A stretch of DNA of 64,000 bases from Cliona cf. orientalis (lineage: Eukaryota > Porifera > Demospongiae > Clionaida > Clionaidae): NCBI GenBank assembly GCA_963930775.1, contig OZ005694.1, positions 4,829,054 through 4,893,053 of the forward strand. The letters are read 5' to 3'. Position 1 is the first letter of the stretch; every line of letters starts with the position of its first letter. Below are positions 38 through 24,100 of the stretch, piece after piece. Made by a program: the position numbers and the translations under genes. Under the pieces are notes generated by a model. That model was not told the DNA's origin and made no database searches. It saw only the letters and a program-made list of their open reading frames with translations.

Positions 38-101
38 ATGAACGCCACTACAATTTTTGCTAGTACAGAGCCAACTTCTGATGGAAGCAATCTGTCAACA
101 G
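38..101 (+). CDS. Exon 1: start codon and short polar N-terminus
   Basis: ATG at 38 opens 21 codons rich in Asn, Thr and Ser, with two N-x-S/T sites (N2 and N18), and ends in phase 1 at the donor ggtaact. An in-frame TAG at 26-28 lies upstream, so the frame cannot run further left unless an acceptor lies between 29 and 37; an acceptor-like gcag at 21-24 suggests a 5' UTR exon from 25. There is no cleavable signal peptide. Start choice is moderate because the window begins just upstream. Confidence 0.5.
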
Positions 102-3100
102 GTAACTACTATAACGTAACTGCCATGCCACAGTAACGGTAATAATAATATAGGACCTGTAGGCATATTATGTAGTGATGTATTATAGTGTGTGACACAT
201 TGTGTCATGCCAGCTATGAATTACAGTATACAACTTTTGTATGTGGTATGGATTCAACGATATTATTATAGGACCTGTAGGCATATGTAATGATGTAGTA
301 TAGTGTGTGACACATTGTGGCAATAATACAGTAACGTGTAACAATTTTGCCTATGCATTTTTCACTTTAGGTGACATCATCGGCATAGTTTTTGGATTGT
401 TTACAGCTTTTGGTACTATAATTGCTGTCGTGCCTTTTGTGATATGTTGTTGTCGAGGTAAGACACAAGAACTATTAATTTTAGCAGTTGATACACATGT
501 ATGATCCTGATAATCATTCAGGCTTGAGCAAGTCCCACACTAGTTAATTAATTAATTACTACTACGATGTATATATGTATATGTGTCCACAGGTTTGCTC
601 AATGTACATACGTATCCTTTGGCACATGTTAATTAAGCTCCCCCAAACAAAAACAAAGCACTGGCAACTAATGTGCAGCAAGAGTCAAAATCCCCAGTGA
701 AGGGCATGCAGGATTTCTTGTTATGGAAGATGTATTAGTGTAATATTATTGCTTGCGTAAGCACACCCATACTAGTGGGGGAGGGGGGGGGGAGGGTCTG
801 GCGCATCCCCCAGGATTCTTGACTACTTGCATACACACTCAGTACATAATATTTATCACACTTTCCTGTGAAGTTTGTAAAATTTGTGGACAAAGCCACC
901 TACTGCCATGGTATATGATTGACACTGAAGCTATATACATGTACATGTATCTGTGTAGCTCAATTATATAGTTTGCCAACTGTCCCAAAATATCCAGGAT
1001 CAGGGCTCGAAGTAACATTTGACAACCGGACAATTTCCGCTGAAATATTAAATTTGACAGTTCAAAAATTACTTTCTCCAGACATAGTGGCAGTACAAAC
1101 GATAGACTAAGTAAGCTAGTGGTGGCAGTTTACACAGGTGTGGTCACAGTTTGTATAGTAAACCTGTTTAGTGGTGATGTAGCTTCACCCAAACCACATA
1201 ATTACTGGCAGACTTGGGTAATCTTAGGCACTTAAAAATGCTTGTGAGTTCTGAATTTGTCTGCATGGATATTTTTAGTCTCTTGCTTAGATTTTGAGCA
1301 CTGTTATAGGTAAAATATTATGGAGAGCACTGTAAATGTTGGTAATCCTTTGTTTATCATCAGCAGGAAAGCATGAGTCTACAGGATAAAATTTGTATGT
1401 GTCTGGAAAAAGTTAGATTTATATTGGCTATTGAGAGCCCTGCAGGATGCTCCCGAACGTTGTCCTACATGTATGTCCCAGTATACTGTACATAGGACAA
1501 ATTGACAATGTATAGTGATCAGTAACACTCCATTTCATAACAGGATACTGTTTTACGTTTGTACGCTATCATTTTAGTACTGTTTGCAGCATTTATTTCA
1601 GGGGGACCAGGCTACGAATGGTACCTCACACACATGTGTAAGGGGTAAAGCAATCAATTTATCTATTTGTTGTCGTAATTGGCACGAAAATCACCAGATC
1701 TCGAGTTCTAGGTGTTTATGCATGCTATATGCACAACAAATCAGTGAAAAACTGGTTTCTACATGTTTCAAATTGCTGAAATGGCTTACTCGTGCTACAA
1801 ATCGTGCATTTCCTTTTTAGCATGACTATGGTTTATTGATCACACCCACCCCACTGGCATGTGCTGATGTAGCTGCGCATACTCAAGCTCAGTATAGGAA
1901 AGGGTCATCAAATTACATCAGCTCTGGAGTAGAGTGTTGCAATACTATATGCTACTGTAACAGTGGTTACAGAGCGTGCGGGGCATGTGGTCTAGAGAGC
2001 TCTAGTATTATTAACCCTTGGCGCATGCGCGAGGGTTACGGTAGTCGTTCTGTGTGTGTGTGTGTGTGTGTCTGTTTGTTTGTCTGTTTGTCTGTCTGTC
2101 TGTCTGTTACCACACTAACTGCTACATACCTCGTTTGCGAGTCCAAACTGCGGTGTCATTAGGTTCCTTATGGTGTTCTAAATGCATGTCTGATTTGTGT
2201 GGATTTTGCACAGAATGCTTTGTTCGTTAGTTTTGGCGTCATTTGCTGATTCTAAGCTTCTTGATTTCTCCGATCACAGCCAGCTAACTTTATGTATCAA
2301 TAGAATGCTAATTTAGGTGCCCTTTGACCTGCTCGCAAATTTTATGGTTCTAATTGAAAGTGCCTGCGAGATCTGTAATTATGTTTCAGCGGTATAAATC
2401 TGGTGCAGAGAGAGAATCAGTGTTTTTTTGGCTAATATCACTGGGACCACTATAACTATATGCCTGAACATTTCTGCTATTACCGTACTTAACCTAATAC
2501 TACGCATGGAAAAAAATAATTTCATTTTTGAAAAATGCGCGTTTTTCTGGTAAAGGTCGTCAATCGCTCCATATATAAACGTTATGAGAATTCGTAAATT
2601 ATTGTTTTAAATTGGATCATGCGTTGTATTCGATTAACTATGGTATTTTTTTCTTGAATTCACAAAATTGTAACTATGCTAGCACAAAAAGTAGATCTAT
2701 AGATTGCGTATTGTGCGCACGGGGTACCGTATACTCTGGTTAATAAGTACATCCGCTTATAGCGGTAAACGGAATGACAATATGCGCTTAATAAAAGATA
2801 TGCACTTATATAGCACATAACCACGCCCACAAACGTTTGGGCACATGATGGATGCGAAGCCCACTCGTGCTAGCGCTAGCTGGCTTGATCGATCGAGCGC
2901 TTTAGCGTTTACAGCTGCCGCTCAAGACGACGAGTGCTGGCGATCTGTCTGAAATTTCGTCTTCTTGCATGATATGGCCATCATTTCTCCAAAGATATCT
3001 GGACTCCACATACTTTCCAGCCGGTCAAGGTCAGGTTCATAGAACGCCACACCTATTAACCGCATGCGCTTAATAAACAATAGCTTATGACGAGAAAAGA

Positions 3101-6100
3101 GCATGCGCTTAATAAATAATGTACGCTTAATAGCGAGGTGCGCTTACTGATACCAGAGTTTACGGTATATGCTCTCCAGAGCTCTAGTTAGTAAAGTATA
3201 AATGATTATGCACCTATTAAGATGAAGTTTATTTTGAGTAGCTTCATTTATATCCATATTTCAATAATCTGCAGTTCACATTCCAAACAATATTTTGCAT
3301 AAAAGACATGTGGATCGTCGTGAGACACTGATTATAGAGGCAAGAACACTTGGAAAACTTGAATATAAGTGGAATAATGATTCACAATATGCAAAAAAAT
3401 CCTATACAATTCCGGATACTCCAAGTCAGACTGAAGTTGAGTACACTTGCAAGATCACACCAAGGAATTGTTTTCGTAAATGGAGGTCTAGAGAAGTAAA
3501 ATTTATTTGTCGACCTAATGGTAAGTGAAACAAAATGTTGCAATAATCTGTACTTTACTGCACAAAACTGTACCCTGCCATCAAATCAATTTTATATCAT
3601 ATCGTGTAGCAGAGTTAGGATGGAGAGTGCCACTCTCGGGTGAAAATCTACACTTGAATATCCTTACTGTCATGGATGGTTAGCATCCAAGCAAAATCTG
3701 TGCAGTACTTGTATCGATGGACAGATTTTACCTAAGCATACATGCAGTTGCATCAATAATATTATTGTCAATTGGCTCAATTGTACTTCGACCCTATTTC
3801 CCACTCATGGCCGTATGTTTACAAATTAAATAATTACCATAATATTTTCAATTTTGCTAAAAATATATATCCTGGAATGTAAGATGTAATAACAATAATA
3901 GCCTCCGTAGATGACGGCAAAGGTTTATGTAATAGAAAAGTGAACTTTGACATTAATTTTTTGGCCTGACGTACTAAAGCCACGCACTGCATGAATAGCA
4001 TAGCATGTGGATTCCATACCCTGGGTTTTCCCGTAGATAATCACTTATAATAGGGTGTTCATGTGGAGAGCATAGTTTATTGTTATAAGTCCATGTACAT
4101 TATATTGCCTGATCGGATTTGGGAAATTATTTATAGATGTATGATTTAACGACCAGTAGCCGTTAAAAATAAGGTGTCATTTCTGTTCCCGTCTAGACAG
4201 TGTTACACCGTTCATACTAGCGGTACCGTTTCCGTTTCGTACGTAGAACAGTAGAATGGAATAGTGGAATCTCAGTGCAGTTAAGGCATGTCTGATTATC
4301 ATTGGCGCGCGCCCGACTGCGAGCCAATTAGTGGTTTGTATTGTGACGTCACTATCATATCAGCCTTGAACAAGCCACGGCAAAAAGCCGCATAGCCGCA
4401 GTTTTGAGCTCACTTCATCGAACAAATGCCGTCCGGAATTGTAGCGCTCATGTTTTCGCAGTACTAACGATCGAAAACCAAAGCTTATGATCGATGTTGA
4501 CGATCTATCGGACGGATTGTCGATGGCTGCTTTCAGTTCGGAGCTACATGCGAAACATCGTACCGTGGACCCCCCAAAATCTAGTTTTTTTGCGACTAAA
4601 ATCGTAGCAGAGGGGTTTTTCGACAATCCGTCCGATGATATGTTAGATCATCATAGTAAGCCTCCGTTTGTGTAGCTAAGGTTCGGTAGAAGTGGCCGCT
4701 TAAATTCCGGATAGCTCAATTTAGCGTTTTAGAGGGCGTGGCTGAATGGCGCTGCCACGCCTAATTAGTTAATTGGTTGCGGTTAATAATTAAATATTCG
4801 GAAGGTGCTTGGATTGGTCTTTCATATGGTACCCTGATCAGCCTCTGATACTTTCACTAGGTGCTTAAAAAGAGTCCTTGAATGTGACTGAAAATTGTAG
4901 CTTCTTCAATTCCAGACAGTCCTTAAGTGCACTGAGATGGGGAATACTGGAATGATTAACAACCCTGGACATGAGGCTATCTATTACTGGAGAACTATCG
5001 ACATCTCTGAAAGTTGAAAGAGAGTTTTATAGCTGTGTGAAAAGAATGTATTGTTTTACTGTGCATATCTATAGTTATCTGATTGATTGCTCAGCAGTGG
5101 AGTACTTACCAAGCCCTGGCACACACGTCACCCAGGGAGCTAGTGTTCCTGATACGCTTATGTAATGTAATGGGTACCGTGACCAAGAAGTTTAATTGCC
5201 CGGGCCTTGGTCCCAGGCAGTGCCAGGGATATTGCGTTCAAAATAGGCTGAGCAACAAGTAGGCACCATACTACAATAGATATTCTGTCTGTGCTGGAAG
5301 CATGTTCTCTCTCTGTGGCTTTTGCCTCTCTGTCTTTCTCCAAGTCTACATCCCCGACCTATTCTTTTCTCTCACCTTTCTGATGCTCAAGCTGAGCTGC
5401 ATAGTGCACACGCTCGAGTAAGTACATGTGGTACAGGGTCATTAGTCATAGTTGCCCATTCCACTATTCCACTGTTCCACAATTTTACTATTCCACATTC
5501 CATTGAATCTAGACTCCCCATCACATCAGCCTCTGCTCATCCCGTTTTCATTCTTTTGTATGGGGAACAGCCGTTTTACTTTCATCTCGATGGTGCTTAA
5601 TAGAACAAAAACGTCACCATTTTATTGATTCCTACTATACCTATCTACCCAGGACTGCCACTTATAAAGTGCTATAATTTTTAAATCTCAAAGATTGCCA
5701 CGTGGCTTATCGCAATGAATACTTCTCTCACAATCCAATGTGGCATACTCGTAGAAAAGTGTTGATAACAATGTGTATTTTACAATGTACATGCACTCTC
5801 AATATTCAAAATAAATTGCATGTACATCGCTGCCCATAAGTAGTGGCAGCATTGATAATGAGATTTTGAGGGTTCAATTTTAGTTGTCCTTTCTTCCTCC
5901 ATACTCTATAGTTCCGTCAGCTCCTCCTAGTGATGTTCTTGTCATTACAAAAGATTCAAGGTCGGTGAGCCTCTCTTGGAATGCTCCTCCTGCAGCAGAT
6001 CACAATGGCGAACTTACTGGCTATACAATAAAGGTCAAAGATCAAAATGGGAATGAAGCTCGACCTCCCTTAACAACAGACAATACATGTACCTCTAAAG

Positions 6101-9100
6101 AGGTTGATGGCTTAAAGCCAAACACTGACTACATATTCCAAGTTAGTGCCATGACAGCTGCCGGTAGTGGAACTCCCACATCCAAAAAGGGACACACTGC
6201 TGAAGGAGGTAAGATAGCTTATTAAATTTCATTAATTTTTTCCGGTACACAGAACATAAATATTAAATTTTTTGCATATTATTGTTGTGTTATCAAAAAG
6301 TGGTGTGTACGTGTTTGGGATTCTTTCTCAGCTTCGAATTAGCGTAGGCTGCTAGTTAAAGACCCCATTAATTTACATGCACATGTATTTCCCTGGTTTG
6401 TAACTCCTGCCAGGAGTGACGTATGAAGCTGGCTCTTTAACTGAAGAAGAGATCTTCAGCTTAGCTAGAATCATATGGACTGGCTAGAGGTAGCCCCTGA
6501 TAAGCGAGCTATGTGCTCAACGAAATTGTTTTCAAAATATCAATTATCAGCACCTCATAAACTGTCTCTGGATGTCCCCTTGCTTCATATCTTCTCAGCA
6601 AACTACATATAGCTCACATGTTTTTTGAGCAATGCATTTAATTGTATCCGATATTGAGTGCCTAATACATGTATGTCTGATTTCGATTTTACTTGGCATA
6701 GGCCTTCTTCACCATATCTTAACTGGCTTGTTTCTTGCATGATTCCTTCCTGTTTACTTTCTTTTCCCCAAAAGAAGGCTGGTAGTACGCTGCAGGTCCA
6801 TGATACTCTTCAGTAAGATCCAGACACAATAATCCCTATTCCTGATCCTGTAATTTGTGTGAACTACAGTAACTATGTTGATAATTGGTACAGATAATAT
6901 AGGTAAGGTCAGTGAGTGGATTACAATGTCATAATACTTTAGTGATGACTAAAACCAAGCACATGATACACTGATATCTTCTTTTTTTTACCAACTAGTT
7001 TCTAGCCTGTGTAGATGATATGTATATGCCAAGCATACCTTGGCTCCCCAGTACTTTGATTTCCAGCAGGTTCAATGAAATATTGTACATGTGGAAATTT
7101 AGCTCTGTTTATGCAAATATGTGGTGCCACCCATTAAGTCAATGGCCACCATAAAGGTTGAGTGAGAGTGCACGAAATATTTTTGTGTGCAGCTACTACA
7201 TATCTAACCGCAGGAGCTCCATATCATGAATGCTCTCCATGTAGGTAGCTACTTGCCTGATTTGTTAGAGCTATAGCTCAAGGTGAGTCAATGTTCAATA
7301 CTTCGACAATTCTAGCTCTCTCATTTAAGCTCCCCGTGCATACAATCCACATATTGACACCTCAATTATTGGATATGGCAACAGCAGTGCGAGCCGAGCC
7401 AGGAAAGTATAGTGATAGACATCAAAGTGTATAGAGCACTAATACACAAAGAAATAATAAGCCTAACAGTAACTAGGATGGACTGTGAGTATTGCACTTT
7501 CAATTTTGGCTGTGCTAGCCAACATAGCCACGCTTGGAAAAAAATTAAACCTCTCCAAAAAACCTCGTTTATTAAGGAAAAATAAGAGAGGAAAAAACCG
7601 GAAAAGTAAAACATCCCAGGCTAAAAATTCAATAGTAACAGCGGCAAAACTATAAGCAGTCACTCCTGTGACAGTCCATGTATACATACAGAGCTTGTAA
7701 ATGGTCACTGATCTCTTGTGCATCACTACAGATAGTCTCTCCAGGAATGTTGATGCTTCACGTCCATGTCTTCTGCATTTCACCCAAGAACAATGTGAAT
7801 TAAATGCCACCCCCATAAACGAATAAATAATAATATTATTGTTATTATTGTTACCTTTGAAAAGTTTGCTGGGCAACAATGGAACTGTTGAGAGAGTGGC
7901 TATTTCCAGCCCTGCAGACCCATTTTATGCCAACACTCTGGCTCTGCCAGCCTAAACTGGATTCAATGAGCCCTTACTTGTCTCCAAGAATGCAAGTACA
8001 AGTGCTAGCTAGCTGCCAGGCGCCACCTCTCACTGTGTACGCATGCGCACTATATACATGCAGCTATAGTGCAACAATAAGAGCTTATTTTCTGTCTAAT
8101 TCGCTACACTCAAACGTCAGAAAATATACCTCTCATTTAAGTCCCCCGTGCATGCAATATACATATTGATACCTCAAATATTGGGTATGGCAATAGCAGT
8201 GCGAGAATCAAAGAAAGTGGCTGGAGGTAGTTTAACTTATAGGCCTAACTTCTTAGAGATAGATAGTCTTTCTTCATTCCTATCCTGAACATAGCCATCT
8301 TTGGTGGACTCCCTTCGCCACCGTCCAATGTCTATCTGGCACACCTGCATTAGCAGCAGCAGATGCACCACCAGAGCGAAGATTGTGTAGGCTGAATTGC
8401 TTTTGATCCAGCCCTATAGACTCCAACATCGTGAGAACAAGCTCCCGCGCACGGGTATAAGCGGAGTCGCATAGCTTTTTGTTATAATGAGGCATCTAAA
8501 ATTTTAATAGATAATAATTGTCCAATAAGTTTGCAACGGATGTATTCGCCAGGCACATATAGCGCTCAAGCATTGCTACTGGACAATAATCGGTGCCTGT
8601 ACGAGCAATGACAACTATGGCTCCATCTCGGTATTGGTCAGTTTTGCTGCTCTCGACAAAAATTTCCTGATGGTCCTCAAAAAACTGCAAAACACACTCT
8701 TTAATCTTAGCAAGCTCACTGTACCGAAAACATCCAACAAATCCCAATAAGCAGATCGTCAGTGTGCAAATATTTGCCAGTGTTGCTTGCTCAGTTGCAT
8801 ATTTATCAACCAGGGATCTTAATAATATTTATTTCAGGGGCGATGGGTTCTTTCTTATTCACCCTGTGGGCGAGCAGACACTTTGCCCCTTCCAGCACTT
8901 GCTTTACCATGGGATGCTCAGTTGGGTCTTCTACACAAGCCAGATTGTGTAGCCCTTTTAATTCTGGGTCAGTAATGCTTTCCAGTTCAGGCCAAATACC
9001 ATACCTAAAAACGTCTGTAAAGGGAGGGTAGTTTGGGTGGGTGGGGTTAATGGAGCAATGAATTATCAGTTATTAAGGATGCATTCCAATCATTTATGCA

Positions 9101-12100
9101 TGCCGTAACTTTACCATCAGGGCCCCATGCCATTACACAGCAAGCATCCGGATCACCCAGATCCTACAGACCGTAACTTCAAGCCTGAATACGGCCGAGT
9201 ACAATACAATACCTATCCAAAGTTAAATTTATTGACTAGCTACAGAAATAGTCCATCAGTTTACTCCTCTAATGCTTGTAATCAGTAGTTATATAAACCT
9301 AGTCAAGTGGCCAAACCAAGCTACAGCCTGAGCAGTAGCCAGCACCAAAAAAGTCTATTGTACAGAAACCATGCCTGACACTTCTAGGAGGGGCTGAAAA
9401 ATCGAACCAAACGAACATAAATGCAGAGTCTACTGTCAATGCATCTCCTCGTGAGCGTAAAGATAGTCAACATTGACTGGGTATTAAGTCTAAATGTAAT
9501 GCATCGACACACTGCCAGCTTCGAGAGACCACTAGAAAACCAGAATAAAGTAAGGCATCAGTACACATACACGAGAGTAATATCTACAACAAGTAGGCTA
9601 TGGTCTGGGTGCCAGGGCTACATTGTGATATAATTTATAGTATATGTAGAAATTTTTGCAAGGAGAAAAGTTTTTGCCAATTTTGCCACCTGCTATCTTT
9701 GGCGAAATTTTATCATGCTAATTTGTTGTCCTTGTGTTTAAGATTGTGTAGAGGATACGGTGACCTTTGCCGCATTGGCGAACATTTTTCCGCAAACTTT
9801 TTCTGCAGTTTTAAGGTAGCTGGCTTGTGCTTGGAAAAATTTTATCCAGTGAAACTTTCACATGTACAGTGGATGCCCTAAATTAAGTCCTAGTTGCCCT
9901 GGGTACAACTGAGTCTATATAGTTGACAATATATATTCTGTACAAGGAATGAACCAGTCTAGAGGGAGGCCTTTAACAATAGTCTTGAAAGTTGATAAGC
10001 AAGCATCGCGTATAACTTTGTTCAAAAGTTTGGTGACATTTGCTGACCACCACTGGCTTCTTTCTTCTTGAAGAGCTCTCGATCTGTGAAAGAGACGGCA
10101 ACAACTTCATTTCAAGAAGTTTAGTGTGTAGATTTAGCGATAGTTCTCATTACTCAACTGACTCATCAATGGTCACAGTAGGCTATCAACTACACTTCCT
10201 GGTTTTACTTTCTTTGTGTGCACTATAATATATCTGCTGATCTGGTATGCACTTGGTACTACTATGTATAACTATGTGTAAATGGTATTAGTGCATTCTT
10301 GTGGTTACTAGTACTCTCTACTATTATTTTTCAGCCTTTAGAGTATGATAGTACTTACATAGCGTTGAGGGTTTGGCACCAATGGTGTTCATTGTTATTT
10401 GATTGATCATATTAATGCTTACAATGTATACATTACTCATCTCTTCTCCCTCCATTCTGTAGTTCCGTCAGCTCCTCCTAGTAACCTTCATGTTACTGAT
10501 CATGACTCACGCTCGGTGCATCTCTCTTGGAATCCTCCTCCTGCAGAACAACACAATGGCCAACTTACTGGCTATACAATCGAGGTCAAATATCAAAATT
10601 GTGGTGAATCTCGACCTTCCTTAACAACAGATAATACATGTACCTCTACAAATGTTGATAGCTTAAAGCCAAACACTGACTACATATTCGAAGTGAGTGC
10701 CATGACGGCTGCCGGTAGTGGAGCTTCCACGTCCACAACACATCGCACTACTGAAGAAGGTAAGATGGCTCATTATGATTATGAATCAATGTTGAGAAAG
10801 CTGTGTATGGGACCAGCAATGCACATGTTTAGCAGCTTCGTCCTCAGGCCACTTCCATGAATTCAATGTTATAATATTATACACGTAGAAAATGGAGTGG
10901 TCTAGGGACGAGTACCTCAGCTTGATTGTATTAATATCAATAAACCTTTCTTCCCCCTCTTAGTTAGCAAAATTGAGTTTGCCTCCCCTTACATTGGTAG
11001 ATGGAAACCCATATGTGAACCTCCAAACTAAGTGTAATGCGTTTGACATCAAGGTTTATAGACCCCTTGACAATGTGTACTATAGGCTCTTGATCCTTTG
11101 CTTGCTAGTATTACTTTTTTTATCTATCATCTATAGCCAAAGATTTGATTTACTGTCCCAAAGAAGTTTGCATCATGTTCAATTTCCTCGTACTTCCGTG
11201 GACTATACAGCGATATTAGGTGTGCCCATACTTCCCTTATCAAAAATGGGTGTGCCTTATATTATGGTAACACAATTCCTTTAAATTTCACTTTTCATTC
11301 AATTCAAGAGCTTGTGGAGACAGTTTGAATTCATAAACAAAGTTGTTAATTATGCTAACTGGAAATTTTGTTCCAAATTTCTCAGGTTGTCTAAGGACTG
11401 GGACACCCATTCAGACTCATGATTTTAGCTGTATCTTTGCTAGTTTAGTGTCTAGAAGATAATATGATATGGACAAGAAAGTTGCACCGTAATATAGACC
11501 AACCATTATTTTCTCTAACCGCAAACTAATTTATAGCCACGCCCACTAATTAGTCGCCTCCTGGTGACGTCATGAGTAATGGCTATTCTGAAGATAAAAT
11601 CGCCAAAGGCGGCGGTGAAGATCAGCCTGGACGACTATTTCTCCAGGCCTTAAATAATATTCATATGCCTAACTAATAAATATCACGGGGCAAGTCGATC
11701 TATCGTACTACTAAGCTAGAATACCACGAAGTGTGATAAATGTACCGATCATGGAGGGCTATTTACCTGAATATCTCCCGTCCCGTTGAACAGCTCTTCT
11801 TGCCCCTGGGTAGTATGGCTTAAAATCGACGTTATTCGCTTTGTGCAATGGAGGTATCTTCGTAGCTAAGCGTCTTCATCGCCACCTCAGCGACCCTCAG
11901 CCTTTGTACTGCTACTATATGGCCATGATTGTGATCATGTGACTAAATGTAGTGCTATGTATATCGCGCACGTGATCCCGCTCGCGCGTGCGCATACCCA
12001 GTCCTTAGACTACCTGAGTTACCACAAGTTTCCAGTGAAAACAGAAAATCATTGGCTCTAATTTTTACAGTGTATGCCATCTTTAATGTCACCTTTCAGC

Positions 12101-15100
12101 TCCTTCTGCTGCTCCTCGTGATTTCACTATCAAGCTGACACTCCAAGATCACTCCAGAAGTGCGCACCTCTCCTGGATTTCTCTTCCAGCTGAAGATTGT
12201 AACGGAGACATCATTGGCTACGAAGTTGTTGAGGAAGGACCATACTCGACTCAAACCCATTTAGTGAAAACCAGTACCTCTTTAGAGATTCCTAACTTGA
12301 CATTCATGGACTACAAATTTAAAATCTGTGCAATGACAAGTGCTGGTAGGGGACCTTTTTCTGAAGAAATCGTGGAGTGTAAGATTCCTAATAGCATTGT
12401 ATGTAAGAACTATTATACTTTCTCCCTTACTACACCGTACTTCAGGATTGTAATCCATAATTCATAATTTTCACTCTGCAAGTGCAAACACTGGTGTGCC
12501 TGCAGAACCATCAGATTCGCTGTCCATTTGATTAGATCACAAGCATGCAATTGAATATGCATTCAATAATGCATTTACACATATCGTAGCATCCTCAATG
12601 AAAAAGCATCTAGTTGTTTTGACCTACCACATAAAAACTAGCTACAGTACTTTGTGGATGACCCACTGCAGAAATAAACATGTATCATGATTCATGAACA
12701 TGTAGCTTAGGTATAATGCAATTAAAACATGCACATTTCTGATTAAGATTCTCAATCGTTCCATATTATATACACGTTATGAATGCTAATTTCTTACATT
12801 AAATTGGATCATTAAATTTTTGTTGTACCGTAGATCGGGATATTTTCGCTGGTAGAATATTTCGCGTAGTCTAAATTTCGTCACGAGACTTTAGCGACTA
12901 AAATAGTTATAGGTCGACGTACATTACACAAAATATTTTGCGTTTAGTTTTATCAGAAAAGGTTGTTGATGAAAATTTTTTAACAGTGAAAATTTTGTGA
13001 TCCACGGTATTCGATTAACTACGGTATACAGTGAAAATAATAATAGTACTGTAGAATCCTGCAATTACGCACTAATTAAGGTATCAAATTCGCATGTTTT
13101 GAGAGGCCTGCTTAGCAGGCCACCGAGCCTCGAGCGAAACGAGAGGCAAGGTCTGTTCTTTGTCATGCCTATCGATAGTCTGGTAGTAGATTCGACATTT
13201 GAGCAGAGCGAAAACATTGCCATTGCAGTGGTGAGTTCGAGTAGCTGCTTGACCTGCATCGATGGGGGGATCTGAGCATGAATGTACTTGATATTGCCCT
13301 ACAGTTTTAACGCTGCAACCATAAGCATGATGGTGTGCTTAGCCGGGTGTCATGCTACATACACTTCACCCTTCTCCGGCTAGGGGAGCTGCTACCAGCA
13401 TCGCAGACAGCCCTCCACCCAGCGAAGAGCCAAGCATGGGGGAGATATGGCAGTAGATAACCATGTGGATCCAACAATGGTCCAGGTTCACCCAAAAGTG
13501 TCAAAATGTGACCAATACGGCTCTGGGTCGGACGTAGTGTTAGGCCGAATAAAGAACTCACTTTGCCCAGTGTCCGCCCTGATGCAGTACATCATCCTTA
13601 GAGGAAGCCAGACAGGCCCCTTCTTCATAGACTCCTCCCAAGCAGTCATCACCAAGACTCGGTTGGCCACCATATCAGCCTCCCTCACTAGCACCTGCAA
13701 TCCTAAGAGTTAGGAACTTCATCTGAACATATTAGAACTCATTGTACATTATCTGTAGCACAGTGGTATATATCTCCCACCCTCCCCGTTATTTTGCTAT
13801 TATAATCTCCCCCCTCCACCCCTCTAAGCAAACAGGCACACTTCACTACCCACACTTCTACCACGAATAGAGACCCTCGAGGTAACCCACCAACACTGAT
13901 AGGTATGCATACTACTACTACCTGCCTGCGTGTATACCGTACTCGCTCTAATTATCCGAACGGCCAAAAATAATTATTAATATCGCCGTTCAGTGTTAAA
14001 TAGAAAGTAAATAAATTCGGGCAATGGTTTGTTCGAGTGTAAATAGAACAGATCTGGTGCAAATGGAGAAAACACTATTATAGTGATGAAGAAACAGCAG
14101 TCGATGTCCAACTATAGGTTTATCGTTGTCAGCTCTAGAGTTCTGAGTATCGCTGTGCTCTCAGGAGTGATCGCAAAGTGATCATCATCTGTGTCTGTGT
14201 TATTTTCCGCTCTTATATGTTGTCCAAGATGTGGTAGCCACACTCTTCGATGAACGTGGAGGAGTTGTCTCGAGCTCCTGCCATGCCATACCGCGTGGCC
14301 GTTCAGTTGATTTAGAGCGGATGAGAAAACTTGAAATTTAAGATGTTCGACGAATTAGGAAGGAAATAAATTACTTAAACTTGCCGTTCGGGCTATTAGA
14401 ATGTTCGAATAATTAGAGCGAGTACGGTACATGAAGTTCACCTAGTTTTGGGGAAAAATTAGGGAGGCACTCTCGCACGCTGCACAGGCCGTGAGAAGGT
14501 GCCTCTCCACCTTTGGGCTGGCATTCGGCTCCCAGACTAGGGCCCCTCATTCGTACTTCCCCCAAAATCGCACCGGTCACGTGACATAGTCACGCCTTGC
14601 TCCCAGAAACAAGCCCAAGCTTCTCGACACAAAGGGGCATAAGGTGGAGCAGCATGTACGTGACCTGAGGTCACCAGCCTGGCTCCCGCCAAACTAGTCA
14701 GTAGTTACCGGAAGCAACCAGAGTTAAACGTAGTTAAACGTAGTTATTGGCGGGAGCCAGCAGCCGGCTGCACCCAGGGTGGCGCCGCAGCGCAAGGCAA
14801 CTGCATTGGCTGCGCATGCACATATTGGCATGCAGAAAATTACTATGACAACCATCGAGCAATTCTAACGCAGGAACAAAGTGTTTTTTAGCAGCTTTCA
14901 TGTTCATCCCATCTCAATCTTCTAGCCGTCAGTGTAGTACTGTGGTACTATGACAGAGCTGACCAACAGCCCAGTGGACATGCCCCCCTTCATCCCCGCA
15001 CAGTTAGCCTGGCTCCAGGGAACTTTCGCCGCTAATGGAGCACCAGCATCTGGGGCTGGAGCTGGAGCTGGCTCAACTCCCATCACCCAAGCCAGAGCAC

Positions 15101-18100
15101 CAACACCGATCTCCATACCAGTGCTACCTGGCTCAGGTGAGACTCGCTTACATAGTTTCTGTGAACATTTCTCTTCCACTGCAAAAGTTAGCTACCCCGC
15201 TGGGTACCTTGGCTACAGTAATTTCTTTCAAACAGGCTGCACAGGCATCAACCCGATACCTAGCCCGCCTAGGTGTGCCGCGTGCACTGACGCCAACCTT
15301 ACATGCACCATGTAATAACATGTTCAATGGTTCAATTACAATACTTGCAAGTACAAGCTTTCCTGCTTTGCCGTGAATAGGCCCCCCACTCACTTTGCAA
15401 TGCGCCGATGAGCGACAAGGCTGCCTGTGCACGAAAGGATCTAGAATCCTGGATAGGACTGCTAAACCACACATGCAAAGTGGTCCGTTCAGGGAGATCC
15501 TTCCTACGGAGGATATTGGACCTGCTCCATGCAGTAAACACATCTCAGCCCATCATTCGCCTCAACCATAGCTTCCTTGCCGACCTTGCTTGATGGCGCA
15601 CGTTCCTGACTCGATGGAACGGAGTATCATTCTTACCCCCACCATCCCTCCTACCAGAGACCTATGGAGTGTGGCATGGGGACCACTGGCCGCAAAAGAA
15701 CTCGTCCCTATCATTCTGGCCAGCGCAGCCTGGAGCAGAGCATGGCAGGGGGAGAGCATGGCAGGGACGCCAAGTCTTTTGCCGATGCAATAATCAAGTG
15801 GAAGTGGCCTACCTAATATCAGAACAAGTGAGGATAAAGGAATCATGTACCTACTGAGGTGCCTAGTTTTTATCGAGACAACCCACCAATGTTTTCTCCA
15901 CCCTACTTACATAGACACCAAGTCCAACCATTTAGCCGATGACTTATCCAGCAATAATGTCTCCTCTTTTCTCCTCAAGGTTCCCACGGCCAAGCCTCAC
16001 TCAACCCAGGTGTCGCAAACACGGTATTCGATTAACTATGGTATACAGTGAAATTAATAATTCACATAACAGTACCGTAGAATCCTGCAATTACGCACTA
16101 ATTAAGGTATCAAATTTGCGTGTTTGAGAGGTCTATTCTTTGTCATGCCTATCCATAGTCTAGAAATTACAGAGATTGCGTGCCCATGTGGCATTCATCG
16201 GTAAGCAGTCATTTGTGTCATATTATGCCTTACTTTGTCGTTTCTCTCGAGTTTTGCCCATCAAACAGCCAGAGAAATTACAGAGATTGCGTGCCCACGT
16301 GGCATTCATCGGTCAGCAATGATCATCATGCGGGAATGTAAGGATCCTGAATATATATAAGCTCCCTCACCACTTTTGCCCAAATCTTGTTTGTGTACTT
16401 TTTGATCCTGCCATTCCTACTTCATCCTTCAATTTTATTCAATTATGCCCCCCTTACATAAGCCCCCCTGCACTTTTAGCTCAAGTTCCTGCATAGGTAG
16501 TTTTAATTTTGCTTTGTGTATAAGCTCCCCCCCTCCCTGACTGTACAAGGTGGCTATTAGTATCCAAAAGCCAAGTTAACACACTAAGTAGAAGAAAAGG
16601 AATAGGGAAGAAGAAAAGTCTTAGGGGTCTATAAAGCGTATTATGCCACAATTTTTATATGAACGCGCAGAATGGGTCGAAACTAAGGATTTGACCTTGG
16701 GCAATTTTGATTCACATCTTAGAATTAAAGTTACGGCCCTTTGAAGTTATCCCATATGTTTGTATAGGAAGCCATGCATTTGCAACGTTTTCCGCCCACG
16801 CGCGCGCGCTTATCGACGTGACGACCATTACCCACTTAGGTCAAATAGATGTGTAGGCTGCCTGCTTGCATTATATGGCTATACTGTGCATCCAGCTCAA
16901 CTATGTGATTGTTTTTGGACAATTTAGTGTGTGGTCTCCTTGAAAAAAAAAGTAGCTAAGGCTAGCGAACCAGTCATTTGTGTCATATTATGCCTTACTT
17001 TTGTCATTTTTCTCGAGTTTTGCCCATCAAACAGCCAGAGAAATTATAGAGATTGCATGCCCACGCGGCATTAATGGCACAATGGTCGTCATGCGGGAAT
17101 GTAAGGATCCTGAATATAAGCCCCCTCCCCACTTTTGCCCAATGCTAGCGGGGGGGGGGGGGGGGGGGCACAATCACGCGGTTCTACACTTGCCACAGGT
17201 AAAATAATATTATAAAGAGTCAAAATGGACTTCTTCACAGTATAGGATTAAGTTAAACATGAGATCAATTTTACAATAATTATGGAGCATACGCAGAAGA
17301 TTTTAAAAAAATTGGTGTTTTTCTGTTCATCGATTATTCATGCTTTCAATTTTTAGTCTGTTGCTTGACAATGCCTTTTATAGGTATAGGATACGCCAAA
17401 GACCAAAGTAAGGCAAAGGAAGGCAAACAAAGCCTATACTAAGCAAATATGAACGTGGAATGCAACAACTATTCAGTAAATTACAAGACTTACAGTGTGT
17501 ATTATAACCTTTTGTTGATGATCTAACAAATGTCAGACCACCCCAGTTTGGTCGGACATCACCAATATTCCTATCTGTGCTGAATAGCCTCCTGCTTAAC
17601 CTGTTCTGTAATAATACACTCACATTGTCGAAATGTTCTGCTATAGTGCTTCACTGGCTGCTAGCCATCTAGATCAGCTAACTGAAATCTGAAGTGAAGC
17701 TCTATGGAACAAAATCAGAATATAATATAAGATAGCTATAATAATATTACCGTAAACTCTGGTTATTAAGCGCACCTCGCTATTAAGTGCACATTATTTA
17801 TTAAGCGCATGCCCTCTTCTAGTCATAAGCTATTGTTTATTAAGCGCATGCGCTTAATAGGCGTGGCGTTCTATGAACCTGACCTTGACCGGCTGGAAAG
17901 TATTTGGAGTCAGGTATCTTTGGAGAAATGATGGCCACGAATAACGTTATCATGCAAGAAGATCGACAAATCGCCAGCACTCGTCATCTTGAGCGGCAAC
18001 TGTAAACGCTAAAGTGCTCGATCGAGCGAGCGCTAGTGCTAGCTGGCCTCGCATCCATCACGTGCCCAAACGTTTGTGGGCGTGGTTATGTGCCATATAA

Positions 18101-21100
18101 GTGCATATCCTTTATTAAGCGCATACTGTCATTCCGCTTACCGCTATAGGCGCATGCGCTTATTAACCAGAGTCTACGGTATTACAACAAAAATTTAATG
18201 TAGATAATAGAAGTTAATATCTTCCTAGTCTAGTTGCAGAGAGTGCTTTTTTTGCGACTGACATCACTGGGATTAAACAAAATTTTAATATAATCATGAA
18301 CACAAAAGTAGATCTACAGATTGCTCAATGCATGTGTGCACTGGGTGTGCTCTACATACTCCAGCCAACAACTGCCCATGCACATGATGTAGCTTTCTCT
18401 TAGACTAGTTAATCGATAGCTATGTGATATTAGTAGTCCACTCTACCGTTCCATTCCAAAAATCCAGTCCACTGAGTTTATATACCCAGGCTTGATGGAC
18501 TTTTAGCTGCCTCGTCAGATAGTTATGTGGTTTGCCCAGCCTATCAGCCAATGGAGTGTGGCCAAACCATAGTTAATATTATGACAATATGGAGTTTTTT
18601 CCAGCACAGCACTTGATTGTACAATACTTAGCTGACTCATGTATCGGCCCCCTATCTTTGCAAATCCCAGCCAACAGAAGAATGAGCACTGATAGTTTTG
18701 TGAAATCTAGGATGCCTGTACACTGGGTCATATTTCCTCAATCAGATGACACCTTTGAACACTTAAATTGTGGGTACATTTTCTAATAAGCTATACCACG
18801 TTTATGAGTGCATGTGCTACATGTGTGATGTTTAATTGTAATGTCTTCTTATAATATATTGTTATAGAGAGAAATACAAAATACTTTCCACCAATTTTAG
18901 GTAATTAATTTCAGTTTACCTCTATTTTTATGCAGTGGATTACTACTCAATCCTTGCTGAGAGATATGAGGAACTTACTGAAGAAAAAACTGACAGAGTC
19001 TTACCAGATGTCAAGTTTGTCCGTCCGGTAATAGTTCAACCAACTCAGCGTAACACACGCAGAAAATATACAACCCCCCAAACTGATATAGACGAAATAC
19101 CTGGAGAAAAGGTTGACTTCAATTATGATCATCTTCTGGAGGAACAAGAAGAAGGCACAAGAATCCTGTTGCAAGGTAGACCAGGATGTGGAAAATCAAG
19201 ATTGATGAAGCAGATCTCTCGTGAATTAGCAAAAAAACACCTCAGTAGTACAGATCGTAAGTTTGTCATATTTGTCAAGCTGCGTGAACTGTCTGAACAA
19301 GAATTTGATGAAAATAATGGATTGAAATGCCTTCTGTGCACTGCTGGAGTTAATCTTCCTGATGTTGCCAAGGAAACCCTATTGTCATCAAAGTTTGATC
19401 ACCAAGGAAGCAATGTTATCTTCCTTTTTGATGGCTTGGATGAGTGTATTCCAAAAGATAAAAGTACCACTCTCATTCGCAACATTTTCATGAACAGGGA
19501 GACTGCATTCAAAAATTCCATTGTTATTATGTCATCCCGCCCAAGTGCTACCTGTGATTTCCAAGAGGAAAACCGTATTGAAATTGTCGAAATTTTTGGT
19601 TTTAAGACAGATGAAGTCTTTAAATATCTGCAATATGTGGAAAATCTTACGGATGCGAAAAAGGAGAATCTTACAAAGCACTTGAAAGACAATCCAACGA
19701 TAATGAATATGTGCTATCTCCCCCTTTATTGCGCTATGCTTGTGCAATTATCTAAGAGTGTGGATGATGTGAGGGAACTACCGAAAACTGAAAGTGGATT
19801 TTACGAGCATTTTACTCTTTCTACCTGGAATCGTTACATTAGAAATCGAAGTGACAACCGGTCACATGCAGGTGGACAACTGCCGACATTTATCAGTCTT
19901 AAACAGAAAGATGATTTCAAGGAGATATGTAAAGTTGCTTATGATAGAACGAAAGACTCCAAGCAGGAACTCACAGCTGATAATTTCTCTGAAAAACAAG
20001 ATTTTGACTTACTTGTTAGTGAACAAGTTGTTGTACCTGTAGGTGGTGCAGAAGTGATGAGTTACTCCTTTGTCCACTTAACCTTCCAGGAATATCTCAC
20101 TGCCATCTACATAGCTTGGTATCTGGAAGAGTCCCAGCAAGACGCTATTGTAACAGAGCACTGTAGTAATGAAAATTTTCTTGTCATATGGCAGTTTCTT
20201 TTTGGCATCTTGGAGTCTTACTCAGATGAATTATTTAGTAAAATCCAAGGTGCTACCCCAAATGACCATATGCTTCATGTCAAGTGTGCCTACGAATCTC
20301 AGGATCGCAAAGCGTGTGATAAAGTTCTTGTCTTTCATGACCATAGCCTAACGTTAACCAACATTCGCCCTTCTGACCTGCCCTGTCTCACTTACGTTTT
20401 GGAGAGTATCGATACTCCTACAGCTGAGTGCAAGTTGAAGTTCAGGTCTTGTAATTTTGGTGAAAAAGATGCCCACACTTTCTTGGAGGGAGTTGGTCAC
20501 CGTCAACTTTCATTAGCAGTCGAGTATGTTGATGCTTTGTATTGGTGTATTATAATACCACATCATTTCATAATTCTCTAATTATCCACCATAGTGGGGG
20601 TGAGGCTGCACAATCGATGCTCAATGATATCTGTGATGTGAAAGTACCTGGCTTGAAAGAATTAAAGTAAGTTATTTCTTCATATTGTTGCATGGAAGTA
20701 TAATAGTACAAAGGATATGTGTGCCTTTTATTAGCATCTTTCCTGAGTCCTGAGACTCCCATTTGCCCCGTGCACATAATATTATGTAAAGGGTGTATAA
20801 TAATTCTCTATTTTTAGTTGTTGGTAATAATTAGCTATAGAATGGCTAAAGGGACAGTGGATTATATTCTCAAGATCAAGCAGCGTGTTGATGGTGACGA
20901 TGATTCTCTCTCTATGGGGAGTGTGACTATGATCATCAGATCAGCCTATCATGGAGGCAACCAATCACAAATCTTGTGATTTGCAAGAAACATGCATTGA
21001 CATCACTGAAGATGATCTCGATACCACACAATCCAGCACAGTGCAGGTGGCTCTTTCTCTTTTGGGGATGAGTCAACATGGAGCACCACCATCAAGTAGC

Positions 21101-24100
21101 TAAACATCCATATAACTATTCACCTCACCAATAGACCCTACTCGTGACTTCATTCTCATCATCACTTGGCCTGTTTTTCTCACAGTTACACACCTGATGG
21201 AAAAGATTATGAAGTGGCCAGGATGATAGTCGATGGATTGTGAGCATTCTTGTTACTCAGTGTGTTGCTGGGTATAAACTGTCTACCATCCAACTGTTGC
21301 TGGTCTCGAGCGAGATCCGTATCGTAGGTATTCCATGAGATGTTTTGGTTTATACTTTGTTGACGATACCCCCACTTGGAGAAGAATTGCAGGCATGATA
21401 GTCTCAGATAAACTCATTCATGTTTGGCTAAGCCTATGAGCACCCCCCCCCCCCCACCCCATCTTGACCTTGATGTTGATGAAACAAGAATCAAGTTTCC
21501 GCATGATACATCATTTTTATATAACAATTCTGCTTTTGCAAGGATACATTTAGCATACTGGAACAGTACATGTTGCTAATGCAAGTATGGGTTGCTGCAG
21601 GGAGCGCATTAGCTATTTCTAGAGTTTAGAGGGTTTTACACACTGAAGCCCGTTTTTCGCCAAATGCGACTGATTCATTGTGCTTACTAGTCGCTCAGGT
21701 ACCTAGATCTCGAGATATGGCAAATTTTCTGCTAACGACAACAACGACAACTACAACAACGACAATGATGACACGACCGATTACTTTACCCCTTGCGCAT
21801 GTGCGCGGGGTAATAACATGATCTTGTCTCATAGCTATCAATATTACACGATAATTAGCAAGAGAATGGCTAAAGGGACAGTGGATTATATGCTCAAGCA
21901 GTGTGTTGATGACTCTCTCTCTATATATATGGGGAGTGTGACTATCATCCAGATCAGCCTATCACGGTAGCAACCAATGACAAATCTTGTAATTTGCAAC
22001 GAACAGTTACATCACTGAAGATGATCTCAATACCACACAATCCAACGCAGTGCAGGTGGCTCCTCCTTTTCTGGGGATCATGAGCCAACATGGAGCACCA
22101 CCATCGAGTAGCTAAACATCCATGTACTAACTATTCACATCACTAATAAACCCTACTAATGACTTCATTCTCATCATCACCAACTAACTTGGAGATTTGG
22201 GCTATTCTTCTGGCAAACTGCATGCATGCATGCACTGTAAAAACTCAAGGGTTGTTTCAATCCATTTGGGTTACCTCAGTTGCAAAAGAAATGTCTCAGT
22301 AACTCACATAGTCCATTGTAAACTCACATTCAGTCGTATAGCCCATTGACTACTATATAATAGTTAAGTAATGCCACGGTAAGGTATTTTAGTTTCTACT
22401 ACATTAGTAATGAATTAATCAATTGAGATATTGCTACAACAATTCAATTGATTAACTCATTACTGGTTCAATAACTCAACTGATTAACTTGTTACTAATG
22501 TAGTAGAAATAAAATACTTTACATTACTTAACCATTAGTAGTCAATGGGCTATACGACTGAATATGAGCTATTCTGTTTACAATGGGCTACATTCCTTTT
22601 GCAACTGAGGTAACCCAAATGGATTGAAACAACCCTTGAGTTTTTACAGTGGCGCATGCAGATATGAATTTTGTAGCAGATATTCCAAGATTTTTCCAAG
22701 TTAAAGTTTTTTTAAAAAGCACATGCATGTAGATGATGTGATTTCCCTTTCTACTGTAGCTATATCAGTAGTCTGTCAAAAACGGTGAGCATTAGATCTA
22801 CTAAAACAATTGGAATAGCTATAAGCCTTAAAATTCAAGGGAAAAGGAGACTGAATTTGTAATTATGGTCATGTATGCACACTGTTCTTCTCTATGAGCC
22901 ACATAGATGGGTAGGGAGAGTATTTTTTAACTACTATAATTCCTAATCTTAAAGCGGCTAGGCTCCTAAGTGGCTCTGAAGTTAGGCTTTCCTGAGCAAA
23001 TTAACTACAGGCAATGGCAGGGATTTATGTGCCTAGAGCCAAGCAAGATGTATTGGATGGGAAGATTACTTCTTAGGTTTAGGATTGCTTAACTTAGTAG
23101 AGGTGAAGCTACTGAATTTTCATGTATATTTGGGATATCCACTTAAACATTTTGTATCTTTTTTATTGCAGGATTTGTGGGTACTTTGATCAAGTCAAAG
23201 CTAAAGGAAGTGTCCATAAGAACTGCAGTAATCTTAAGTCACTGACGTAAGTCACAATTATTCAACGGTGAGGCCAGGTAGTATTGAGCATAGTTGTGTC
23301 ATAAATGGTACTAATAGATATTATAATATATTCTCCCAATACTTAAACCAAGAAAGTGCAGTGTCAGAACACTTGGCCTGGGGATTGATAAGAAAGCTAT
23401 TAATTTATAGGTTGAGCAGTTTATTTTCTTCACTCTCGTACTAGTCAGACTCCATACCGGGGCAGGGGCTGGAGGGGCTACATTTCCAACTCCTTCCAGG
23501 AAGGAGGGTAAATCCCAATCACTTTTCCAGAACCATTGTTGTAAACCACTCTGTATAGATCAGAGATACCGTATTGATGGTGGACTGTCAGGCAGTGCAA
23601 GCTTGAAATGTGTCTAAGATACATGTACTATATCCAGGCGAAGATCTCATCTTTGTTGACTAGTATCACAAATCTGCTTCTTTATAGTACATGCAACAGT
23701 GAAGTGGGCACGCAAGCCCGACCACTTACATTGTCATTGCGCCGCCCCTGCCAAAAGCGGGGAGCTTGTACCATGATAGTGTCCCTAGAGAAGCGCCCAT
23801 GTACCACATTTCAAGGGGTCAATGTAGCAGCTTCTATTATATGCAGTTTATGTCTTGGGTGAGCGCCCATGTGGGCCAAAATCGCTAGTGATGTTTAAGT
23901 ACCCATGGGTGCTTACCCAGGAACCTACAGTATTTGGATTAAACTTATTATAAGTGCTGCATGAAAGCAGAAGAGGATTGCTATAACTATGCTATTAGTT
24001 ATTACACAGGCGCCGGCTCAAGTGCCACACAACAAATAATATATTGGCACGTAGCTCCATAAAGCACAAGGGCTGCAACTGATATTATTGCATGAATAAC

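Follow-up and report, generated by a model that had tools for sequence, protein, structure and literature searches.

Exon organization and domain content of gene copy A

The analyzed window, a stretch of 64,000 nucleotides, carries on its plus strand a series of exons that we describe as gene copy A, one of three neighboring copies (A, B, and C) that make up a family. The start exon, e1 (38..101), begins at an ATG that is kept in paralogues B and C and is preceded by an in-frame TAG ending 9 bases 5′ of it; its 21 codons plus one base encode the short N-terminal tip. Exon e2 (371..457) encodes a single membrane helix (DIIGIVFGLFTAFGTIIAVVPFVICCCR), e3 (3275..3520) a putative Ig-like beta module, and e4 (5912..6208), e5 (10463..10759), and e6 (12100..12378) one FN3 domain each, all five exons being phase 1-1. 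The e6 donor at 12378 is common to A and C, and an additional phase-1 donor at 12402 exists in A only. Across an intron of 6.5 kb follows e7 (18936..20523; phase 1 in, phase 2 out), which encodes the NLR core, i.e., NACHT, WHD, HD2, and a first LRR-like stretch, and then three LRR-like phase 2-2 exons, e8 (20595..20666), e9 (23172..23246), and e10 (27328..27405). Exons 1 to 7 (38-20523) had been proposed with phase-1 junctions throughout in a first-pass annotation, and re-reading them from the sequence bore this out: AG precedes e2 to e7, GT follows e1 to e7, and every one of the six junctions from e1/e2 to e6/e7 is phase 1. We infer that a single mRNA contains all of these exons.

The HMM search of the joined protein recovered both fn3, in three stretches (Pfam, whole-protein E value of 1.2e-42), and NACHT (E value of 1.6e-18); in the protein used for the Pfam and relatives searches, e6 ended at 12402, 8 residues beyond the preferred boundary. 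The NACHT of exon 7, annotated earlier as complete, is indeed so, with Walker A/B motifs, and is followed by WHD and HD2, as in NLRs; e7 then runs into the first LRR-like stretch. The e7 sequence profile matched NLRP3 (E value of about 1e-34), and the e7 structure model resembles NLRC4, NLRP3, and NOD2, with 14-20% identity in the rows compared. At its C-terminal end this model forms strand-helix units, and the end part of e7 matched NLRX1 weakly (E value of 0.0015). Exons e8 to e10 were read as LRR-like by eye and had no Pfam match, and a pattern search for LRR exons found none; e8 is matched in both B (87%) and C (68%) and e9 in B (70% over 20 residues), and the DNA examined for these two copies yielded no e10 counterpart. 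Another LRR-like piece lies at 41807. CARD, DEATH, and PYD were absent from the 25 of 30 families listed for the joined protein (Pfam, E up to 1), which does not carry the canonical N-terminus of NLRC, NLRD, or NLRP proteins (CARD, DEATH, or PYD). A genome search for Death scored the best 150 of 1292 candidates.

Exons 3 to 6 had been read as an Ig-like module followed by three FN3 modules. The FN3 part holds by Pfam, whereas the Ig-like identity of e3 is plausible: this exon carries a W...YxC pattern, but neither e3 alone nor its B counterpart matched a Pfam Ig family at E up to 1. Its profile match to NLR Ig domains was weak (hhalign probability of 18.7), a PDB sequence search returned one match (E value of 0.65) and no solved relative, and the low-confidence structure model (pLDDT of 43.8) has four strands. 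Searched against the genome, e3 gave three clear matches, all at the three paralogues.

Membrane helix and predicted topology

The e2 helix reaches a Kyte-Doolittle mean of 2.54 over 19 residues, against 1.25 for the runner-up, and no other part of the joined protein is strongly hydrophobic. Phase 1-1 exons with an e2-like hydrophobic stretch number three on the plus strand and one on the minus strand of the 64 kb, e2 included, and e2 alone is therefore little proof, since the chance rate of such exons is about equal. The C counterpart is identical. The B counterpart (C6:4918479-4918559), likewise phase 1-1 and at the same place in the gene, spans 81 rather than 87 bases (two codons shorter) and differs in sequence at equal hydrophobicity (2.65), which supports e2 as a real helix exon and agrees with its earlier description as a clean membrane helix.

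In A, a 22-residue acidic tip precedes the helix and the modules come after it. The charges around the A helix favor an N-out orientation, pointing to an N-out/C-in topology; those flanking the B helix (0 basic and 3 acidic residues before, 2 basic and 5 acidic after) lend it no clear support. Ig/FN3 strings are usually extracellular, in adhesion receptors mostly behind a cleaved signal peptide, and their cytosolic placement next to NACHT had been flagged as paradoxical. The helix does precede the modules; however, the paradox is weakened by related proteins in the databases that combine Ig with NACHT within one ORF. In proteins such as P0053, P0056, and P0081, the NACHT is 28-30% identical over 86-90% of e7, and in P0081 the Ig lies directly before NACHT. 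Among the 120 NACHT-exon relatives listed, 29 had an Ig family in their precomputed Pfam lists (counted by eye) and none had fn3. NACHT thus occurs beside Ig in proteins that lack a membrane helix, as no stretch as hydrophobic as e2 was present in any of the eight Ig-NACHT proteins checked (best values of 1.55 to 1.93 versus 2.54).

Recurrence of the arrangement in paralogues B and C

The sequence shows the exons, phases, and domains described above and the recurrence of the arrangement in three paralogues. B and C lie on the chromosome and strand of A and repeat the order leader, helix, exon 3, FN3, and NACHT, with one to three FN3 modules per copy. The sole FN3 exon found in B has e5 as its nearest relative in A and ends with a phase-1 donor (CTGAAG/GTAAAG). 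FN3 modules and NACHT are linked in all copies (3/3), and between A and B the N-terminal exons have diverged as much as NACHT (equal synonymous change). Comparison of synonymous with nonsynonymous change gave a P value of 5e-8 for e7, 0.09 for A-B e1+e3+e5, and 0.012 for A-C e3-e6, which suggests that the N-terminal exons, unlike e7, are under weak purifying selection only.

Genome searches scored the best 150 of 489, 82 of 440, and 103 of 490 candidates, so that counts are lower bounds (the first of these gave at least 162 matches, of which 150 were used), and the place lists omit two NACHT places on C14, each at a distance of 2 kb from a place that is included. Among the matches listed, the only contig combining FN3 or e3 with NACHT was the one holding the window's own NACHT. 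An FN3 cluster on C11 was considered as a source of the arm and rejected, its exons being about 41-69% identical and not near a listed NACHT. The C11 FN3 exons adjoin large ORFs, one of which has a sub-threshold Roc match.

One gene or two

The one-gene reading is the best available, since two paralogues repeat the arrangement of A, and it is on this paralogue evidence that the membrane helix and NACHT would belong to the same polypeptide. A single gene might nevertheless give two products, namely, a short isoform that stops after e6 and a long one with the NLR core, the choice being made within the e6-e7 intron by splicing or by polyadenylation; this is possible, if doubtful, and compatible with the main explanation. 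In addition to the phase-1 donor shared by A and C, read-through of e6 leads in both copies to a common in-frame TAA (ending near 12467 in A), followed about 200 bases downstream by a shared AATAAA, so that a shorter protein could terminate in e6; the A/C read-through region contains two indels summing to three bases. However, the common stop may only reflect the high A/C DNA identity there, and no e6 counterpart was found in the B DNA examined.

The same stop and AATAAA, together with the long e6-e7 intron, would also suit two neighboring genes duplicating together, one for a small membrane Ig-like/FN3 protein ending after e6 and the other a NACHT-LRR gene of the NLRX type whose first exon is short and unrecognized, an explanation that we consider unlikely. 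The A-C 5′ cassette is far more alike than the A-C NACHT part (P value of 8e-14), so the 5′ block is able to move on its own; by its sequence it has moved separately from the NACHT part, which two genes also allow, and the weak selection on the N-terminal exons likewise counts against one gene. Two genes are harder to reconcile with the 3/3 linkage, the equal A-B synonymous change, and copy B, which has no e6 counterpart in the DNA examined and whose FN3 exon ends with a phase-1 donor. Neither do the FN3-NACHT intervals favor them. That of B is only 2.9 kb long; none of its ORFs of ≥18 residues had a match at E up to 1 in the corresponding A or C interval, and Pfam at E up to 0.5 returned no family, and hence no CARD, DEATH, or PYD, in two frames over their full length and in 742 of the 979 residues of the third. 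A point against one gene is that two short DNA matches connect the A and B intervals (29 bases, E value of 3e-5; 22 bases, E value of 4e-4); neither is a match as protein. No coding sequence common to the intervals and no separate NACHT start exon were found, and e7 has no in-frame ATG 5′ of the P-loop. An effector exon hidden in these intervals was also considered and rejected, as none appeared in the interval scans of A/B/C ORFs or in the B Pfam scan.

It is highly improbable that Ig and FN3, in keeping with their usual extracellular location, lie outside and NACHT inside by way of a second membrane exon in 12379-18935, as once suspected, since the one weak membrane-like candidate region in A (17265-17408) is not conserved, the B interval has no phase 1-1 membrane-like exon in our scan, no ORF is common to the intervals, and a single N-out helix already puts the later parts inside.

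Copy A is thus probably one gene of a three-member family, encoding an N-out/C-in protein whose Ig-like, FN3, NACHT, and LRR parts are cytosolic. The membrane-tethered NLR with an Ig-like/FN3 arm put forward in the first-pass annotation is the best reading in this form, without its second membrane exon. Outside the cell, such a protein would expose only its tip of some 22 residues, followed by one helix; all remaining parts would be cytosolic, first the Ig-like module, then one to three FN3 modules, and after these the NACHT-WHD-HD2 switch and the LRR-like repeats. The helix would hold the sensor at the membrane, and the Ig-like/FN3 string, in the position that DEATH or CARD occupies in other NLRs, would serve in the cytosol as a spacer and a docking arm. 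A ligand at the LRR end would trigger nucleotide exchange at NACHT and oligomerization as in NLRC4 or NLRP3, which would cluster helices and arms at the membrane and pass the signal on. A more specific, rather improbable version is a receptor-like NLR in which NACHT oligomerization would gather a ring of helices in the membrane, as in the plant resistosome or in bacterial STAND proteins that carry a membrane effector, with the FN3 arm as a spacer and the N-terminal cassette swapped between paralogues via the long phase-1 intron. If true, cassette swapping would reassort sensing cores and membrane arms.

Comparison with known NLRs and significance

NLRC4, NLRP3, and NOD2 share with e7 the NACHT-WHD-HD2 core, by profile and model, but differ from A in being soluble and having CARD or PYD N-termini. 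Closer in membrane association are sponge NLRs: bona fide NLRs of Dysidea avara have predicted transmembrane segments (PMC12909245), as do Amphimedon queenslandica NLRs cited in the same paper. As proposed for A, the sponge NLRs described there combine NACHT and LRR with a predicted membrane segment and have close paralogues nearby on the chromosome. However, the main text of PMC12909245 contains neither "fibronectin" nor "fn3," its Figure 2 legend has neither FN3 nor Ig, and in copy A helix, Ig-like, and FN3 modules all precede NACHT. Actiniarian NLRs have 3-5 N-terminal transmembrane domains (PMC5094078) and resemble the protein proposed for A in that an N-terminal membrane part precedes NACHT-LRR; they differ in having several helices instead of one, and in the part of that paper covered here no FN3 or Ig was found on NLRs. 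The portion of the literature searched yielded no account of FN3 joined to NACHT. Membrane helices in sponge NLRs are therefore already known (PMC12909245), whereas FN3 plus a helix preceding NACHT was not encountered within that portion.

NLRs have mostly been regarded as sensors of the cytosol whose arms are death folds. A helix plus FN3 string that replaces the death fold in three copies would give membrane-based NLR sensing a concrete example in an early-branching animal; how sensors can exchange such arms is shown by the A/C mosaic.

Exon organization and domain content

Gene A was read as ten exons (e1 to e10, window positions 38 to 27405) on the + strand of the window (C6:4829054-4893053), which belongs to a genome of 217 Mb. 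e1 to e7 are all joined in phase 1, as the first-pass annotation had proposed for the junctions from e2 to e7, and Pfam recovered the claimed FN3 and NACHT modules, with fn3 in three stretches; the e7 to e10 junctions are in phase 2. A sequence profile of e7 and 24 relatives matched PDB chains of NLRP3, the NOD2-like 5irm, NLRP5, NLRP1, and NLRC4, and NLRC4, NLRP3, and NOD2 align to the predicted e7 model (pLDDT 83.0, pTM 0.83) along its length. On these profile matches and model alignments, e7 codes for NACHT, WHD, and HD2 parts and the beginning of an LRR-like part. Farther downstream, positions 41807-41857 (+) encode an LRR-like piece, IKALSEGIRNCKELKAL, followed by GTAAG, which is possibly a further LRR exon of A or part of another gene.

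The N-terminal exons recur in two paralogues

Four phase 1-1 exons with a hydrophobic stretch occur on both strands of the 64 kb, and a single one, such as the helix exon e2, is no more than chance; the paralogues raise it above chance. A genome search with e7 (82 of 440 candidates scored) identified two close relatives that share the chromosome and strand of A: B (C6:4924493, exon listed at 4924490; 73% identity) and C (C6:5029722, exon listed at 5029719; 70%), the next-best match among the candidates scored being 41% (C4:9815524). Both carry N-terminal exons upstream of NACHT in the same order as A: in B, e1 (C6:4915129), a helix exon in phase 1-1 whose length falls two codons short of e2 (C6:4918479-4918559), e3 (C6:4919646), and one FN3 exon (C6:4921263); in C, e1 to e6 (C6:5008302 to 5020118). 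A genome search with e3 found the A, B, and C loci plus a single match at E 0.6, and among the matches listed, 3 of 147 NACHT places have an FN3 place within 40 kb upstream. The NACHT at C4:9815524, the nearest in sequence after the trio, is instead preceded, ~1.5 kb upstream, by a Death-like piece (L047, C4:9816500-9821500), sub-threshold in Pfam (Death, E 0.15).

A single gene is favored

Synonymous changes between A and B amount to 35.8 of 119.6 sites in e3 plus e5 and 90.2 of 321.5 in e7; by this measure, both parts have diverged equally. A has 6.5 kb between its last FN3 and NACHT, B has 2.9 kb, and C has 9.6 kb. Compared with the A and C intervals, the B interval yielded no matching ORF of at least 18 residues (E up to 1). 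The A and B intervals share two short DNA matches (29 and 22 bases), similarity resuming 23 bases before the e7 acceptor; no DNA matches were found between B and C, and those between A and C are several, mostly directly 3′ of e6 or in repeats. No in-frame ATG precedes the P-loop in e7. A separate NACHT gene would need a start exon, and none is conserved in the interval, whereas e1, e2, e3, and FN3 are, which favors assignment of e1 to e7 to one gene. Counting against this, read-through of e6 reaches an in-frame TAA, followed by AATAAA at 12673 (+), both common to A and C; this stretch (12379-12680, +) might represent a short isoform. The e6 boundary annotated initially, 12378, is the better one, because this donor is found in A and C and that at 12402 in A alone.

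C is a mosaic of A-like and B-like parts

Between a point 4.5 kb before the window start and position 12476, colinear pieces of A and C are mostly 85-97% identical, introns included, and the last one, up to 12813, is 74% identical. The block (C6:5003342-5020447, L031-L032, versus window -4469 to 12813) covers A's N-terminal exons together with the sequence upstream of them. The NACHT parts of A and C are 80% identical, and synonymous changes are 15.5 of 254.7 sites in e3-e6 versus 96.8 of 322.7 in e7 (p 8e-14). Moreover, the C NACHT is nearer B (dS 0.26) than A (0.38). These contrasts show recent copying, recombination, or conversion of the N-terminal cassette between A and C; C is thus a mosaic, with an A-like cassette before a more B-like NACHT and a breakpoint in the e6-e7 intron.

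Purifying selection on e7 is clear between A and B (p 5e-8); on the N-terminal exons it is weak (A-B p 0.09, A-C p 0.012), with A-B dN/dS of 0.84 in e3 and 0.73 in e5. Such fast evolution would fit either a binding surface or slack constraint.

Membrane-associated NLRs and FN3 modules elsewhere

Passages of published work describe D. avara NLRs with transmembrane domains, citing A. queenslandica as the first case (PMC12909245), the up-regulation, upon microbial signals, of a D. avara NLR predicted to have a transmembrane domain (PMC6208332), and actiniarian NLRs with 3-5 N-terminal helices (PMC5094078). FN3 joined to NACHT is not described in the passages of PMC11797021, PMC8242945, PMC5041008, PMC8260672, and PMC12723187. 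Membrane NLRs are therefore already known, and a helix, Ig-like, and FN3 arm before NACHT is new within the literature searched. FN3 exons ~41-69% identical to e4/e5 also lie on the minus strand of C11:8347834-8412543 (L036-L041), in the vicinity of large ORFs of 772 and 792 aa. A scan of the 772-aa ORF gave a sub-threshold Roc match (E 5.9e-4), and this FN3 type may serve another NTPase family too.

Topology and proposed mechanism

In both A and B, the 23 residues preceding the helix include three acidic residues and lack basic ones. Basic residues outnumber acidic ones by five to two in the 23 positions after the A helix; in the 25 after the B helix, two are basic and five acidic. The charges argue for an N-out/C-in orientation of A and give no clear answer for B. 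CCCR after the helix is a candidate palmitoylation site. No other stretch of the joined A protein comes close to e2 in hydrophobicity. In the N-out/C-in orientation, the Ig-like and FN3 modules would be cytosolic. The topology had been called paradoxical, and cytosolic FN3 is indeed unusual; the paradox is weakened by Ig beside NACHT, an adjacency that occurs in relatives. An Ig family is carried by 29 of the 120 listed e7 relatives, and the database proteins P0053, P0056, P0057, P0081, and others combine Ig and NACHT in a single ORF, many with LRR families; in P0081, I-set (residues 261-346) lies ahead of NACHT (426-576). A stretch as hydrophobic as e2 was absent from all eight Ig-NACHT proteins checked for one.

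In NLRC4 and NLRP3, the core switches by nucleotide exchange and oligomerizes. Unlike such NLRs, A would have an arm of membrane helix, Ig-like, and FN3 modules, with no recognized death fold. Most simply, A would be a membrane-held sensor whose arm recruits partners; at the boldest, oligomerization would gather the helices, which might then act on the membrane.
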